In this document: positions 41,218 through 49,696 of the stretch, in pieces
Numbering within the stretch: the stretch's first letter is position 1
How the letters are laid out: every line of letters begins with the position of its first letter
Notes under the pieces: model-generated
Told to the model about the DNA's origin: nothing
What the model saw: only the letters and a program-made list of their open reading frames with translations
Database searches by the model: none
Position numbers and translations under genes: made by a program
Source of the DNA: Winkia neuii
GTDB lineage: Bacteria > Actinomycetota > Actinomycetes > Actinomycetales > Actinomycetaceae
NCBI RefSeq assembly: GCF_029011175.1
Contig: NZ_CP118946.1
Location: forward strand, 434,001-498,000
DNA: 64,000 bases
Reading direction: 5' to 3'

Positions 41218-44200
41218 GTGAGCAAAAGTGAGAAGTTTTCTAAGCTGCGCCCAAAGAAGGCCACCGAAGGCGCGCCCTCTACCAGGTCTCAGCTGGTAGA
41301 TGAGGCTTTGAACGGGTGGGTAGAGGAACTCCAGGAGTCCGCTACTTCCGCTCCGTCGCTGCCCAAATTGGAGCTGTTTGCGGAGCATCCGACCGGTCTT
41401 GCCCAGCTCTATGCCGGCAGGGCTACACGTCTTACCAACTTGGTGCGCGAACCGAACGCGTTGGCGCACGTGCGCATGCGCGCTCACGACCTCCTTGCGG
41501 CTCAGAGTGAACTGAGCTCGGGCCAGGGGGCAATCCCCATGCACTTGGGGATCGGTACCGCTTCTTGGACGGATGCTACTGACGGCACTTCGTCTGCTCA
41601 CTCTGTCACGGCCTTGCTGCGCCCGCTCACTATGCAGCTTGCCGAGGACGACGACATCCTTCTGACGCTTCGCCCCGGGCTCAGCCTGAATAGTGAATTG
41701 GCGCAGGCCCTTCGCGATAAGGGGCTGAAGCTGGACATCTCCCAATTCGACAAGGTGGGGGATTTTTCGCCGCTCAATGCGTTGCGTTTCCTGCGCGAAG
41801 CTGGGTCGCTGAACCTGGTTGGCTTCGACATGTACGAGTCGCTCACGCTCGGAGTGTTTGTGAAGCCAGCGGACATAGTGATTGGCGATTTGCAGCGGTT
41901 GCGCGAGCGAGCCGTGGAATCTACGGTGGTTGCCGCTCTTGCCGGCGATGATACCGCGCGTGCGGCGCTGGCGAAGCCGCTTGCCGAGCCGATTCGCACC
42001 GACCGGGACCCGCACACCGAAAAAGGGGTGGGCCTGCTCGACCCGCTGCAGCATGACGCCCTCGACGCGGTTGCTGCCGGCAGATCCCTGGTACTCGACA
42101 CCCCGCCCGCATCCGAGAGGGCGGAGACCATTGCGGCTATCATGGTCGATGCAGCTGTCAGCGGCAAACGCGTGGCGTATGTGCCGGGCGAACGCCGTGC
42201 CGCCACAGCCTTGATGGCCTACCTGCGCGAACTGGGGCTAGACGACTTGGTGCTAGATCTATCGGATAGCACCGATTGGGATCGCGGAGCTATCGCCGCG
42301 CTGCGGCACGCGATCACTATCGAACCGACTAATACCCAAGATGCGGACATGGTAGAGGACATCCGCACCGAGTTGGTGAAGGTACGCGAGAAGCTGGGGG
42401 GCTACACCCAGGCTCTGCACAAGCCAAAGGAAACTTGGGGAATCTCCCCATACGATGCCTTGCAGGTTTTGACTGACCTTACTGCGGGTACTTCCGGGCC
42501 ACGCACCAAGGTGCGCTTTTCGGAAGAACGTTTGGACAAGATTGCCGAGGACGGCGCAGCCAGCGCGCGTGCAGCGTTGCAGGAAGCTGCCGAGTTGGGC
42601 ATCTTCAAGGCGGGCAAGAAGTCTAACGCGTGGCACGGGGCAGTAATTTCCGCGCCCGAAGCCGTTGCCGAAACTGTCGAATGCGTCCAGCGCATCTCTA
42701 TCCAATCGCTGCCGCAAGTGCGTGCCAACATTGGGCGCGTTGCACGCGAGACCGGGCTAACCCAGGCCCACACCTTGGAAGACTGGGAACAGCAGCTGGA
42801 ACTGCTAGCCGGAGTCCGCGACAGCCTCGACGTGTTCTTGCCGATGGTGTTCGAACGCTCCGCGGCAGACATGATGATCGCGACCGCGCCCAAGGAATGG
42901 CGTAAGGAACGCGCCCTCAACATGAAGGGATCGACCCGCAGGCGTCTGGTGAGGCAGGCTCGGGACATGGTTCGTCCCGGAGTAAAGGTAGACAACCTGC
43001 ACGAACGCCTTACTAGGGTGCAGAATCTGCGGAGTGTCTGGGCCGAATACGGAGACGCGGCCGGGTGGCCAAAACTGCCGGGCGGCCTTGACGAGATGAT
43101 CAACGTCAACCAGGCCCTGCGCACTGATCTGAAGGCAATTTCGCCGTTCTTCTCTACCGTGCACGGCGATTTGGCCAAGATGCCGGTAGACGACCTAGTG
43201 CGGCTCATGGACGCGCTTGCCCAGGACAAAGACGGCGCTGCCAGGCTCCCTGAACGTGTCAAAGTGCTAAAGAAGATCAAGGCGCTCGGGCTTGAAGATC
43301 TAGTGGATGACCTGCGGGCACGGCAGGTGCCTGACTATCTGATCCCATCCGAGCTAGACTTGGCATGGTGGGCTTCCGCCCTTTCGGTGATGCTGTCCCA
43401 GGATGACCGCCTGGCCCACTACACCGGAAAAACGTTGGCCGGCCTCAGCACGCAGCTACGCAACCTAGATCGGGAACAGGAACGTTCGCTGGTGCCACAG
43501 GCACGATTCAAGATTGCCCAGCAGGTGCGCCGGCGGCTGCTAGATGATCGCGACCAGGCGGGGCTCTTGTACGAGGCCTTGGCTGCCGATAGCGACCTGC
43601 CACTGCCGCAGATACTGGCAGATTACCCGCTGTCGGCGTACGTGATGCCGATCCGCATTGTTCCGCCGCTGCAGATGTCTAGCCTGTTCGACGAGAAGGC
43701 ACGCATTGACGTGGTAGTTCTTGACGGCGTGGAGCGCCTCGAAGTCGCGGAGCTGTTGCCGGCTCTATGCAGGGCCACCCAGGTGGTCGTGGCCGGGGAC
43801 GTGCGGCGTAAACTCGGCGGAGCAGTGACCGAATTTGCCGAAATACTGCCGCATATCACTGTGCCGCCCTCGGTAGGGAAGTCGAACGAAGCGGTTACTG
43901 ATTTCTTGGCGTCGCACGGGTACGGGCGCGCTGTGTTTTCGGTTCCGGTCCCTCGGACGTCCTCGGCGCTGGGACTACATTTGGTAGACGGGCGCGGAAT
44001 GCCCGCCCCCGGACTTTCGGCTATCGAATCTTCTGCTGACGAGGTCGAGGCCGTGGTCGACTTGGTAATTGACCACGCGCTGTCGCGGCCCGATGAGTCC
44101 TTGGCAGTGGTCACGCTGAACGCGCGGCATGCTCAACGTATCCGAGAGGCGATCATTTCCGCGGTGGCGGATTCGCCGGCTATAGATTCGTTCTTCAAGC

Positions 44201-45234
44201 CCACGGCTGTGGAACCGTTCGTGACCTTGGATGCTGCGCACGCGGCGGGACTACGCCGAGACCGCATCATTTTGGCGGTCGGATTTGCTAAGACTCCGCA
44301 CGGACGCGTCTTGCACGACTTCGGGGCAATCAGCGGTTCTACGGGCCCATCTTTGTTGGTTGACGCCCTTTCAGCAGTGCGCGGGGATTTGGACGTGGTT
44401 GCCTCGTTTGCCCCGGAAGATATTGACGAATCTCGGTTGAATTCCGAGGGCGCTCGCATGCTGGTAGATCTGCTAGCTAGCGCCCAGGAATCCGGCAAGG
44501 CGTTGTCTCCGATCGAACTGGCACAGGCTTCTACAGAAGAGGAATCTGAACCGGATCGTTTGCTAGTTGACCTGGCAGAACGCTTGTATCGTCTGGGTCT
44601 TACCGTGCTGCCCAACGTGGGTACAGATAAAGGGGTGCGCATTCCGCTGGCAATTGGCCATCCGGCATTCCCGGATGAACTGCTGGTAGCGGTACTCACC
44701 GACAATGTCGCCTACGCTTCAGAGCCTTCTTTGCGGCGGCGGGAGCGGATCCTGCCTGCCCGCCTAGCCGAATTCGGGTGGGGCGTGTACACGGTGTATT
44801 CCACCGCGGTCTTCATGAATCCCCAGGCAGAGGCCGAGGCTATCTTGAACCTGGTACTCGATATTGTCGAGGAAGCGCAGGGTGAACCGCTGCCGGAGTC
44901 GGCTCCGCAACCTTCGGTGGAGCAGACGGACGAACTGGAAGTGGACGAATCTGGCGAGGTCAGTGAACCGGCTCCGGTTCGCTCCGAACCGCGTCCTCCC
45001 ATCGCGCCGGGGTTGCCGCTCACCGCCTACGGAGATGACCAGCTAGACGAGATGGCGAGGTGGATTGCTTCTGACGGGGTGGAACGGAGCGAGTCGCAGA
45101 TGGTTGCGGAACTGATTGAAGCCCTACAGATCGTACGCCGCGGGGCGCAGGTAAATGCGGTGCTGGCGAACGTAGCTCGTCGCAATGGAGCCGTGGCAGA
45201 CCCGGCAGAAGAATCGGCCGATGAAGAAGCCTAG
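41218..45234 (+). CDS. Large SF1 helicase/Vsr-nuclease-like protein with apparently degenerate active sites
   Basis: A 1338-residue protein. The layout follows the Upf1-like SF1 helicases with a C-terminal Vsr/MTES_1575-type nuclease. Where Walker A (GPPGTGKS) is expected, residues 295-304 read TPPASERAET, without the lysine. Motif II reads VVVLDGVERL with Asp836-Gly837 in place of Asp-Glu, and GDVRRK replaces GDxxQ. The motif V region (IILAVGFAKTPHGRVLHDFG) keeps its frame, but the arginine-rich motif VI is weak (VDALSAVRG). In the nuclease part (about 1120-1220), NVGTDKGVRIPLAI has Pro1143 where an aspartate is usual, yet LAEFGWGVYTVYSTAVFMNP is well kept. GTG start; a role as an inactive scaffold is inferred. 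Confidence 0.7.
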   Translation: MSKSEKFSKLRPKKATEGAPSTRSQLVDEALNGWVEELQESATSAPSLPKLELFAEHPTGLAQLYAGRATRLTNLVREPNALAHVRMRAHDLLAAQSELSSGQGAIPMHLGIGTASWTDATDGTSSAHSVTALLRPLTMQLAEDDDILLTLRPGLSLNSELAQALRDKGLKLDISQFDKVGDFSPLNALRFLREAGSLNLVGFDMYESLTLGVFVKPADIVIGDLQRLRERAVESTVVAALAGDDTARAALAKPLAEPIRTDRDPHTEKGVGLLDPLQHDALDAVAAGRSLVLDTPPASERAETIAAIMVDAAVSGKRVAYVPGERRAATALMAYLRELGLDDLVLDLSDSTDWDRGAIAALRHAITIEPTNTQDADMVEDIRTELVKVREKLGGYTQALHKPKETWGISPYDALQVLTDLTAGTSGPRTKVRFSEERLDKIAEDGAASARAALQEAAELGIFKAGKKSNAWHGAVISAPEAVAETVECVQRISIQSLPQVRANIGRVARETGLTQAHTLEDWEQQLELLAGVRDSLDVFLPMVFERSAADMMIATAPKEWRKERALNMKGSTRRRLVRQARDMVRPGVKVDNLHERLTRVQNLRSVWAEYGDAAGWPKLPGGLDEMINVNQALRTDLKAISPFFSTVHGDLAKMPVDDLVRLMDALAQDKDGAARLPERVKVLKKIKALGLEDLVDDLRARQVPDYLIPSELDLAWWASALSVMLSQDDRLAHYTGKTLAGLSTQLRNLDREQERSLVPQARFKIAQQVRRRLLDDRDQAGLLYEALAADSDLPLPQILADYPLSAYVMPIRIVPPLQMSSLFDEKARIDVVVLDGVERLEVAELLPALCRATQVVVAGDVRRKLGGAVTEFAEILPHITVPPSVGKSNEAVTDFLASHGYGRAVFSVPVPRTSSALGLHLVDGRGMPAPGLSAIESSADEVEAVVDLVIDHALSRPDESLAVVTLNARHAQRIREAIISAVADSPAIDSFFKPTAVEPFVTLDAAHAAGLRRDRIILAVGFAKTPHGRVLHDFGAISGSTGPSLLVDALSAVRGDLDVVASFAPEDIDESRLNSEGARMLVDLLASAQESGKALSPIELAQASTEEESEPDRLLVDLAERLYRLGLTVLPNVGTDKGVRIPLAIGHPAFPDELLVAVLTDNVAYASEPSLRRRERILPARLAEFGWGVYTVYSTAVFMNPQAEAEAILNLVLDIVEEAQGEPLPESAPQPSVEQTDELEVDESGEVSEPAPVRSEPRPPIAPGLPLTAYGDDQLDEMARWIASDGVERSESQMVAELIEALQIVRRGAQVNAVLANVARRNGAVADPAEESADEEA

Positions 45235-46663: not shown

Positions 46664-46755
46664 GATCCCATCATTGCAGGTTTCGGCGTGCGAGCAAGGT
46701 TGCCACATGGAAAACAGATAGCCTTAAGGAAACTGCAACTTTGAGGGGAGCGCGC

Positions 46756-47964
46756 ATGCGAACTGTCGCCCAGCATTTAGAAGCTTGTTTGGCTCAGGTG
46801 GGTCCGCTTCCACCGCTAGAGGTACTGCTACCGGATGCGGTCGGGTGCATTCTTGCCGAGGACGTAGCCTCCCCGTTCGATCTGCCCGTCACCGATGTTT
46901 CCACGATTGACGGATACGCAGTGCGCAGCGTCGACATTGCGGGGGCTAGCGCTGACGAGCCAGTCTATTTGCGCGTAATTGATGAGGTTCGCGCTGGCGA
47001 TGTTGATCCTACTTCAGTGATTGCCGAAACAGCGGTTCGTATTGCTTCTGGGGCGCCGGTGCCAGCAGGGGCGGATGCCGTGGTGGACCTAGAGGACACC
47101 GACCGGGACGAATCGAATGTGCAGATTAAGAAGCTTTCGTTGCCGGGGCAGAATATTCGTCCCCGAGCAAGCGACGTTGAGGCCTACCAGAACGTGTTGC
47201 AGGAAGGCCAGCGCATCGGCGCCAGGCAGATTGCGTTGCTGGCTGGGGTGGGCAGATTGCGTGTACTGGTGCATCCGCATCCTAGAGTCGTCGTCATGTC
47301 CATTGGTGACGAGCTGGTAGAACCCGGTCGGATCGCTAGCCCCGGTGCTGTTTTCGATGCTAATGGGCACGCCCTTGCGGCTGCGGTGGCGGATGCCGGT
47401 GCCGATACTTTCCGCGTCAATGCCGTGCCAGATGAGCACCGCATCCTGCGGCAAACTATCGAGGACCAGCTAGTACGCGCCGACCTATTGATTACTACCG
47501 GCGGTCTTTCCTACGGGGCAGGGGACACGGTAAAAGAGGTCTTGTCGCCCCTAGGGACTGTCCGTTTCGATTCCGTAGCCATTGCTCCCGGCAAACATAT
47601 GGGCGTGGGCACGGTAGAAGATACTCCGATTTTCTGTTTGCCCGGTGATCCCGTAACCGCTCAGATCTGTTACGAAGTATTTGTGCGGCCGGCACTGCGG
47701 TCCATGGCAGGCTGGTCCGAGCTTTACCGCACGGCCCTTACTGCCCGGGTAGACCGGGGCTGGGCCTCGCCGGCTGGGAAACGAGAATTCGTCCGCGTGG
47801 CGCTCTCTGGTGCTCCCGCTGAAGGCTATGTGGCCAGCGTCTGTGGCGACCCCAAGGATCGGCTACTTTCCAAGCTCACGGAGGCGAACGCCCTCGCTGT
47901 AGTTCCGGAGGATGTTACGGAAGTGCGCGCCGGGGACGAACTAGTGTGCATGGTGCTCGACTAG
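46756..47964 (+). CDS. MoeA/gephyrin-like protein (molybdopterin molybdotransferase or Glp-type division protein)
   Basis: A 402-residue MoeA-family protein with all domains: PFDLPVTDVSTIDGYAVRS, IASGAPVPAGADAVV, VVVMSIGDELVEPG (MPT-binding) and TTGGLSYGAGDTVKEVL. ATG 46756 is preceded by GAGGGGAGC. In actinobacteria this gene, followed by rimJ and a membrane protein, includes Glp, the gephyrin-like protein that binds FtsZ in corynebacteria together with its receptor GlpR. No other molybdenum cofactor gene is in the window, so the division role is a serious alternative to molybdate insertion. Confidence 0.88.
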   Translation: MRTVAQHLEACLAQVGPLPPLEVLLPDAVGCILAEDVASPFDLPVTDVSTIDGYAVRSVDIAGASADEPVYLRVIDEVRAGDVDPTSVIAETAVRIASGAPVPAGADAVVDLEDTDRDESNVQIKKLSLPGQNIRPRASDVEAYQNVLQEGQRIGARQIALLAGVGRLRVLVHPHPRVVVMSIGDELVEPGRIASPGAVFDANGHALAAAVADAGADTFRVNAVPDEHRILRQTIEDQLVRADLLITTGGLSYGAGDTVKEVLSPLGTVRFDSVAIAPGKHMGVGTVEDTPIFCLPGDPVTAQICYEVFVRPALRSMAGWSELYRTALTARVDRGWASPAGKREFVRVALSGAPAEGYVASVCGDPKDRLLSKLTEANALAVVPEDVTEVRAGDELVCMVLD

Positions 47965-48641
47965 TGTTCTCGCTAATAGATCAGGCGCGGTTGGCGCTGC
48001 GCAGACCGCTTGACTTGGTCTATGACAAGCCCGAGCTGGCCGCGATTACCACGGCGAATCTGGGCTATTTGCGGCTTAGGCAAATGAAGCGCGCTGATCA
48101 CCTTCGGGTCAATGAACTTCGCTATGGGGAGCGAGAGTGGTTGGGGCCTTGGGAAGCTAGCGCGCCGGTGGGGTACCCGGTAGACCCACCCACCTTTGAA
48201 CAGTATGTGGCCAGCTGTAACAGGCAGATATTGGATGGCCGCATGATGCCTTTGGTCATCGAAGGTGACGGTCAAGCGATAGGGCAACTTACTATTTCCG
48301 ACATCTCGAGGGCGGCTACGCAAAGTTGCGCTATTGGGTATTGGATTTCGCAGACTTGGGCGAATATGGGTTTGATGACTCTGGCAGTGGCTATGGCTCT
48401 GGACGCCTGCTTTACCGATTTGAACCTGCACCGAGCCGAGATCAATATTCGGCCCGAGAACGCCCGTTCCTTGGCGATTCCGCGCAAGCTTGGCCTGCGT
48501 AAAGAGGGAGTACGGCGGAAATACATCTGTATCGACGGCAGTTGGGCGGACCACGTCTCTTTCGCTGCTACTGTCGAGGACGCCCACGGTGGGTTTGTGG
48601 CCAGGCTGGAGGCTCACAAGCAGAACAACAGTTGTTACTGA
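47964..48641 (+). CDS. rimJ: GNAT acetyltransferase, RimJ family
   Basis: A 225-residue N-acetyltransferase of the RimJ/RimL type, known to acetylate ribosomal protein N-termini. LRLRQMKRADHLRVNELRYG and WLGPWEASAP start the fold; GYWISQTWANMGLMTLAVAM carries the acetyl-CoA loop and HRAEINIRPENARSLAIPRKLG the conserved C-terminal part. The GTG at 47964 shares a base with the moeA TAG; a GTG at 47946 with GGGGA in front would add six residues and is equally possible. Confidence 0.9.
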   Translation: MFSLIDQARLALRRPLDLVYDKPELAAITTANLGYLRLRQMKRADHLRVNELRYGEREWLGPWEASAPVGYPVDPPTFEQYVASCNRQILDGRMMPLVIEGDGQAIGQLTISDISRAATQSCAIGYWISQTWANMGLMTLAVAMALDACFTDLNLHRAEINIRPENARSLAIPRKLGLRKEGVRRKYICIDGSWADHVSFAATVEDAHGGFVARLEAHKQNNSCY

Positions 48642-48751
48642 TGTGAAAGTTGTGACTATTGATAAGGGCGGTTATTGAATCGTTCTCATGGTTTGGAACT
48701 TTCGGGGCGAGTCGTCCACGATCCAGCTGTTTCTTTCATAGATTTAACGAT

Positions 48752-49696
48752 GTGGAGTTTGGAGGAGTGGCTTTCGCAGCAGTCGTGCTTGTTGTACTTG
48801 GGGTTGTCTTCCCCAAGGTCGTCTTGTGGCGTTTGGCAACCAGCCAGGGCAACGAAGCGGATAGGTTCTCCGGAAAACTGCAAATATTGAATACTGAAAG
48901 CGTTCAGTACCAAAGCCGCGGGGAAAACGGTGGGATACTGTTCCCCCAAATAGGAGGCAAAATGAACAACAGCAGGTCTGAATTGGTAAATGCGCGTGCG
49001 CAGCGAGCCGCGTTAGTTGCCCGCAGGCATGCTGCTGCCCAACGCAGGGTGGCGCTTACCGTGTTGATGGTGGCCGCCCTCGTACTCGTGCTGATTGTTG
49101 CCGCGGCCGGGAAGATCTCGTTGCTGTGGGCGCTCCTGCCCACTGCGGGAGTTGGCGCTGCACTCTACTATTCCAGGCGCTCAACTGTTGCTGATCGCAA
49201 GCAGGACGTTGCTGATATGGCACGTATTCGCAAACTGAAGCAGGAAGCGCTTGCGGCCGACCGTCCCGCACCGAAGGCGAACAGGTCTTGGCGGCAGCTT
49301 TCTAGACTCACAAAGTATGATCCCGGGATGACCGAGCAGGTTGAGGCGAAGGATCAGGAGCAAGGTCAGCAGAAGCAAGAAGAGGCCAAGACTGGTTCTA
49401 CTGCGCAGCCGGTTGCGGGAAACGAGCGGCCTCGTAAGTATGCCAAGGGGATGACTTGGTCTCCTATGCCGGTCCCTGCTCCGACTCACAAGTTGAAGCC
49501 GCTGGTCCAGCCACGCACTGTGGCGGTGGAACACATGCGTGGGGATACTCCTGCAGCGGGGGTTGCTGTACCGTACAGGCCGCGCTCGGTTCGGAAGGCC
49601 GAGGTTGCGATGACTTCTGCCGAGGTGGCACGTACTGCGCTTGTTCGTATGGATGGGGACGATATGTTGGAGGCTCGTAGAGCGAACGCGTCCTAA
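48752..49696 (+). CDS. sepX: SepX/GlpR-like membrane protein of cell division (Rv0996 family)
   Basis: A 314-residue protein with an N-terminal membrane segment (VAFAAVVLVVLGVVFPKVVL), a conserved-looking ADRFSGKLQILN, two further hydrophobic stretches (VALTVLMVAALVLVLIVAAA and LLWALLPTAGVGAALYY) and a long polar C-terminus with TWSPMPVPAPTHKL and VPYRPRS. Layout and position after moeA-rimJ match mycobacterial Rv0996 and corynebacterial GlpR, the membrane receptor of Glp, and streptomycete SepX. The first segment requires the GTG at 48752, which has no ribosome site; an in-frame ATG at 48962 has a perfect AGGAGG but would drop that segment. Identity is inferred, not searched. Confidence 0.65.
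   Translation: MEFGGVAFAAVVLVVLGVVFPKVVLWRLATSQGNEADRFSGKLQILNTESVQYQSRGENGGILFPQIGGKMNNSRSELVNARAQRAALVARRHAAAQRRVALTVLMVAALVLVLIVAAAGKISLLWALLPTAGVGAALYYSRRSTVADRKQDVADMARIRKLKQEALAADRPAPKANRSWRQLSRLTKYDPGMTEQVEAKDQEQGQQKQEEAKTGSTAQPVAGNERPRKYAKGMTWSPMPVPAPTHKLKPLVQPRTVAVEHMRGDTPAAGVAVPYRPRSVRKAEVAMTSAEVARTALVRMDGDDMLEARRANAS

Follow-up and report, generated by a model that had tools for sequence, protein, structure and literature searches.

Introduction

Proteins of the MTES_1575 type combine a DUF4011 domain, a superfamily 1 (SF1) helicase, a Vsr-like restriction endonuclease and a winged helix-turn-helix (PMC3710099). Few bacterial pseudohelicases were found in the literature, the clearest being PriA of Deinococcus radiodurans, which has lost motifs I and II together with its ATPase and unwinding activities and still binds DNA and DnaB (PMC4504706). 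ImuB is a catalytically dead polymerase (PMC6511836). The present analysis concerns a window of 64,000 nucleotides from Winkia neuii (assembly GCF_029011175.1, contig NZ_CP118946.1, positions 434,001–498,000; the window is this whole stretch), in which an uninterrupted open reading frame (ORF) on the forward strand, with a GTG start and a stop codon within coordinates 41218–45234, encodes a protein of 1,338 amino acids (aa). An initial annotation had described it as an intact fusion of a Upf1-like SF1 helicase with a C-terminal nuclease, both apparently catalytically dead, and had proposed a structural or regulatory pseudo-enzyme kept at full length and possibly conserved in relatives; the results below support that proposal.

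The protein is rather likely to be a pseudo-helicase/pseudo-nuclease of ancient origin, a core protein passed on vertically within the order of Winkia, that acts as an ATP-independent binding scaffold. Most likely it descends from a Upf1-like helicase that was driven by ATP and had an MTES_1575 (Vsr-like) nuclease as its fusion partner, that is, from the ProA/Hhe/MTES_1575 architecture; judged by its aligned motifs, it is derived from an active helicase family by loss of the ATPase motifs. It is regarded as a pseudohelicase by descent because intact homologues occupy the same locus and an ATPase-intact paralogous outgroup exists. Pseudohelicases and the ProA/Hhe/MTES_1575 architecture were already known (PMC3710099). 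The literature searched contained no paper naming this protein family, no doubly dead, syntenic member that is kept by nearly a whole order while intact homologues share its locus, and no transposon essentiality data.

Predicted fold and loss of catalytic residues

Catalytic columns were assigned by alignment to intact syntenic homologues, which carry GPPGTGKSQ, FDEAS, GDERQLPP, NVAITRxR, PIDLAV and VAVETDG. In this alignment the window protein lacks the Walker-A lysine, the motif-II Asp-Glu pair, the motif-III glutamine and the arginine finger of motif VI. The TPPASERAET, Asp-Gly and GDVRRK readings of the initial annotation are thereby borne out, and motif VI, which it had called merely weak, is altered more strongly, with Ala1053 in the arginine-finger column. 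The nuclease aspartate is indeed replaced by Pro1143, within the motif RIPLAIGHP, and the second acid has been lost as well, Leu1160 standing in the glutamate column; among the 157 aligned homologues, proline occupies the aspartate column in 99 and leucine the glutamate column in 84. Glutamate-to-Leu/Met replacement alone is not special, since it also occurs in the ATPase-intact ProA/Hhe-like paralogues (L140–L152, L154), 10 of 13 of which have Leu or Met in this column, and among which many presumed nucleases may, by their aligned residues, be impaired too.

The P-loop region of the window protein offers no Walker lysine in another place. A lysine at the old Walker position was seen in Varibaculum cambriense (L033, PPESEKTS) and in L243 (PPGSDKLS), in both without the GK[ST] context; it is probably drift, and within Varibaculum the column differs (PPESEKTS vs PPESEITS).

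By sequence, the MTES_1575 nuclease is the only domain of the window protein that reaches its Pfam cut-off (PF18741, residues 1119–1211, 40.1 vs 38.2 bits). The helicase part gives a sub-threshold match to TIGR00376 (IGHMBP2; E 0.1) and partial matches to the ProA/Hhe models; no other helicase model matched by sequence, and a PDB sequence search with the window protein returned no match. The intact homologues, for their part, match AAA_11/AAA_12. An AlphaFold2 (AF2) model of residues 225–1338, built from an alignment of 52 homologues, has a predicted local distance difference test (pLDDT) score of 90.4. Compared by Foldseek and VIA-align, the core of the model resembles IGHMBP2 (4b3g; Z 19.3, root-mean-square deviation 3.1 over 364 residues), Dna2 (Z 18.1) and Upf1 (Z 17.8), and Senataxin and Aquarius match too. 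The model thus clearly predicts two RecA-like domains in the SF1B arrangement, and from these structural matches the helicase fold is predicted to be retained without its chemistry; this fold and the PF18741 match agree with the Upf1-like helicase and nuclease originally assigned.

Selection and distribution

The protein is 84% identical to the homologue of Winkia neuii DSM 8576 (L032), a value comparable to those of the neighbouring purT (84%) and rimJ (79%). The ratio of nonsynonymous to synonymous substitution rates (dN/dS) against W. neuii is about 0.056 overall, with dS between the two Winkia species near saturation. The dead nuclease shows the lowest dN/dS of all domains (0.018) and is 92% identical to its W. 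neuii counterpart, and only residues 1–50 and the linker 1216–1255 are loose in this comparison. A chance open frame is ruled out by the occurrence of the same state across the order under purifying selection.

A long homologue was present in all 59 relatives searched and, in a broader sample of the order, in 127 of 129 genomes and all 56 genera; the two unmatched genomes (E 1e-60) share their genus with two other sampled members that match. Even a strongly reduced 0.8-Mb genome (G225) retains a dead protein of 1,200 aa (L187) together with its mscL neighbour. At class level 43 of 148 genomes matched, many only through distant paralogues: beyond the order, long homologues were confined to a single further family (c38) and sporadic cases (c45, c25), and most other genomes of the class have none or distant paralogues only. 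The suggested conservation across actinobacteria therefore stands as near-universality in the order, extended by at least one family outside it (c38), but not for actinobacteria as a whole. In the complete genome of Nanchangia anserum (L068, ~10650) two overlapping frames of 554 and 1,089 aa take the place of the single homologue; this is a frameshift or sequencing error in one species. Some relatives also have ATPase-intact ProA/Hhe-like paralogues of ~1,700–2,400 aa.

Course of the losses at a conserved locus

Among the 157 homologues, the Walker lysine and the motif-II Asp-Glu occur in canonical context only in groups f4, most of f17 and c45. In lineages where the P-loop can otherwise still be recognised, the lysine column holds other residues: arginine is found in c38 and c25, glutamine in most of f5, alanine in f2, f6, f7, f14 and f18, Ala, Leu or His in f15, glycine in f19 and valine in one member of f17; the P-loop is erased altogether in f1, to which the window protein belongs, and in f3, f8, f9, f11, f13 and f20. 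Read from the aligned motifs, the catalytic columns appear to degrade gradually across lineages. All catalytic centres are lost in the window protein, as first described, but they were not lost together, several lineages without the lysine having kept the nuclease acids: f5 and f6 often retain both Asp and Glu, and among the sampled homologues the replacement of the nuclease aspartate by proline is found only where the canonical P-loop has gone (once each in f14 and f7, generally in f1, f3, f8, f9, f13 and f20, and in part of f19). This distribution suggests that in the Winkia branch the loss of ATP hydrolysis preceded that of the nuclease.

In a tree from which the motif columns had been left out, the lysine state needs at least three changes. 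The approximately unbiased (AU) test did not reject a single clade, whether it comprised all lysine-less sequences (p 0.13) or only those belonging to the order (p 0.20), so that the multiplicity of losses rests on taxon membership and synteny. Tree, taxonomy and synteny speak for repeated loss, apparently three times or more, although a single loss is not statistically rejected.

The gene lies directly upstream of mscL and convergent with it in most families and in c38; beyond mscL follow, in varying subsets, genes for 5-formyltetrahydrofolate cyclo-ligase, galU, a moeA-like gene and rimJ. The mscL address is common to intact copies (L189 and L190 in f4; L216, L217 and L220–L222 in f17) and dead ones. 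The intact copies of f4 and f17 are thus at the same locus and not horizontally acquired look-alikes, and xenologous replacement was rejected as their source; with intact and dead copies at one locus, it was a gene of vertical descent that lost its catalysis. The only intact copy outside mscL synteny is that of c45 (L232:7207–11214), a fully intact homologue of 1,336 aa from outside the order, which may represent a mobile or defence form of this architecture; the lysine-less c25 copy (L233) likewise lies outside this synteny.

Interpretation

By analogy with D. radiodurans PriA and ImuB, the protein probably binds nucleic acid and/or a protein partner independently of ATP. The helicase groove, the helical insertion, the dead nuclease and the C-terminal helices would together clamp a DNA or RNA structure, or the scaffold might hold a partner protein, instead of or besides nucleic acid, as Deinococcus PriA does. 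Catalysis would have become dispensable; the P-loop would have been the first to go, followed in the Winkia branch by the acids of the nuclease.

Several observations weigh against this scaffold reading. Motif Ia, which is usually a contact for single-stranded DNA, has changed as well (VLFVAEK to VAYVPGE). No synteny with mscL was observed for f11, most of f14, part of f7, c45 and c25, and the near-saturated dS mentioned above belongs here too. For the N-terminal domain no PDB structure matched at E < 0.001, and neighbourhood clustering revealed no upstream operon partner, the upstream context not being conserved; for these two reasons no partner or pathway can be named.

A bolder version, which is possible though doubtful, holds that the order arose with a domesticated helicase-nuclease of antiviral type at its base, and that this protein was repeatedly and independently disarmed and is now an obligatory ATP-independent core factor of chromosome or RNA. 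If true, few bacterial pseudo-helicases would be as large or as widely retained.

A large, folded and constrained protein without catalysis of its own could also be the inactive member of a larger assembly that is itself active, docking on, positioning or regulating another enzyme as ImuB does in the mutasome. This is an unlikely account, since none of the genes next to it has been conserved along with it as a partner in an operon, the nearest downstream genes being convergent and metabolic and the upstream ones variable.

That the protein still serves against phages, acting as a decoy, sensor or inhibitor akin to the ProA/Hhe/PDC-S37 systems, is very improbable. It is true that the nearest curated models are anti-phage ones (ProA NF058533, 275.9 bits; Hhe NF042953, 112.7 bits; PADLOC PDC-S37, 272 bits) and that ATPase-intact ProA/Hhe-like paralogues, here of ~2,000–2,400 aa, occur in some relatives. 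These scores, however, are far under the NCBIfam cut-offs of 1500 (ProA) and 2000 bits (Hhe), and even the intact homologues reach only ~780–870 and ~500–640 bits, respectively. The gene is nearly universal at a fixed housekeeping locus (mscL, 5-formyltetrahydrofolate cyclo-ligase, moeA-like gene, rimJ), unlike the patchy genes of defence islands. It is present in single copy in the complete 2.2-Mb Winkia genome, which has no other Upf1-type AAA_12 above cut-off and no other MTES_1575 domain, hence no active paralogue to regulate; compensation by such a paralogue was likewise rejected. The phage-defence decoy of the initial annotation is therefore unsupported, with nothing positive beyond ancestry in its favour; the part in DNA repair that the annotation also named is conceivable.

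A shade less probable still is cryptic nucleotide binding or hydrolysis through substitute residues. The old P-loop PPG and the first motif-II aspartate are often retained, and the few relatives with a lysine at the old position (L033, L243) would fit; against this, the Lys, Glu, Gln and arginine-finger columns are all altered in the window protein, the P-loop is free to vary between close relatives such as the two Varibaculum sequences, and a lysine-to-arginine change alone abolishes the ATPase of E. coli PriA, as cited in PMC4504706. That this is an ordinary decaying gene heading for loss, as the loss of both active sites might suggest, is already contradicted by the low dN/dS, the long intact frames in almost all members and the retention in the 0.8-Mb genome, and can practically be dismissed.

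The retention of a protein of 1,200–1,700 aa by nearly a whole order suggests that Actinomyces, Schaalia, Varibaculum and their relatives share a core function that has gone unrecognised, and the dead homologues, with intact ones at the same locus in sister lineages, amount to a natural experiment on the roles of helicase-nucleases besides ATP hydrolysis and cutting.

Domain organisation and neighbouring genes

The features of the protein are collected in Table 1. The N-terminal DUF4011-like domain bears the family motif AHPxGxAQLYAGRPTRLSxLVRE. PF13195 (DUF4011) gives no match in the window protein and is above cut-off in the homologues L189, L216, L195 and L234; because it passes only in homologues, the DUF4011 descent of the window protein is drawn from alignment. 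According to the AF2 helices and the conservation profile, the helical insertion of ~450 residues is the most family-specific part of the protein, with conserved W472, R574, A581, L598, W608, E712 and W717-W718. Domain 2A retains Arg1014-Asp1015 of motif V, and the nuclease domain retains the structural residues D1162, R1173, R1175, G1187 and W1188. The C-terminal three-helix domain, which has no Pfam match, possibly corresponds by its position to the winged helix of MTES_1575-type proteins (PMC3710099).

Table 1. Features of the 1,338-aa protein with their coordinates in the window
Feature	Residues	Coordinates	Strand	Basis
Pseudo-helicase/pseudo-nuclease, complete gene	1,338 aa	41218..45234	+	ORF; homologues; dN/dS
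N terminus, unstructured and fast-evolving	1-50	41218..41367	+	48% identity between Winkia species; pLDDT low at residues 1-9
DUF4011-like N-terminal domain	51-230	41368..41907	+	PF13195 in homologues; AF2 pLDDT 88.6
Former Walker A (motif I), TPPASERAET, no Lys	295-304	42100..42129	+	aligned to GPPGTGKSQ of intact homologues
Large helical insertion in helicase core	~354-809	42277..43644	+	AF2 helices; conservation profile
Former motif II, Asp836-Gly837 (Asp-Glu in intact homologues)	836-837	43723..43728	+	alignment
Former motif III, GDVRRK (GDERQL in intact homologues)	860-865	43795..43812	+	alignment
RecA-like domain 2A	~901-1100	43918..44517	+	AF2; SF1B structural match spanning model 1-871; conservation
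Former motif VI, LVDALSAVR	1047-1055	44356..44382	+	aligned to LNVAITRAR; arginine-finger column Ala1053
Vsr/MTES_1575-type nuclease fold, catalytically dead	1119-1211	44572..44850	+	PF18741; invariant columns; lowest dN/dS
C-terminal three-helix domain	1256-1326	44983..45195	+	AF2 helices at 1273-1322

A few kb from the pseudo-helicase gene, at 46741–49696 of the window, a moeA-like gene, rimJ and a membrane-protein gene stand in a row, an arrangement that resembles Glp/GlpR, the gephyrin-like pair of Corynebacterium cell division (PMC10522489).

Comparison with known systems

With the ProA/Hhe/MTES_1575 proteins (NF058533, NF042953) the Winkia-type proteins share the domain order, a DUF4011-like N terminus followed by an SF1 helicase and an MTES_1575 nuclease. 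They differ in their mostly shorter length (1,200–1,700 vs ~1,700–2,400 aa) and in their vertical descent at a fixed locus; they are catalytically dead in most lineages and score far under the family cut-offs. The Upf1-like SF1B helicases (IGHMBP2, Upf1, Sen1/Senataxin, Dna2 and Aquarius) are alike in the predicted core fold (Z 17–19), whereas the window protein lacks their Walker-A lysine, Asp-Glu, motif-III glutamine and arginine finger and has in addition the helical insertion of ~450 aa. Utp25 of the small-subunit (SSU) processome is reported to be a helicase-like pseudohelicase within a conserved cellular machine (PMC9539457), but it is eukaryotic and of a different lineage. D. radiodurans PriA is likewise a conserved bacterial helicase that has lost motifs I and II and is kept across its lineage (PMC4504706); it belongs, however, to another helicase family, works in a known pathway and has no nuclease domain, whereas the Winkia protein combines two dead catalytic domains.

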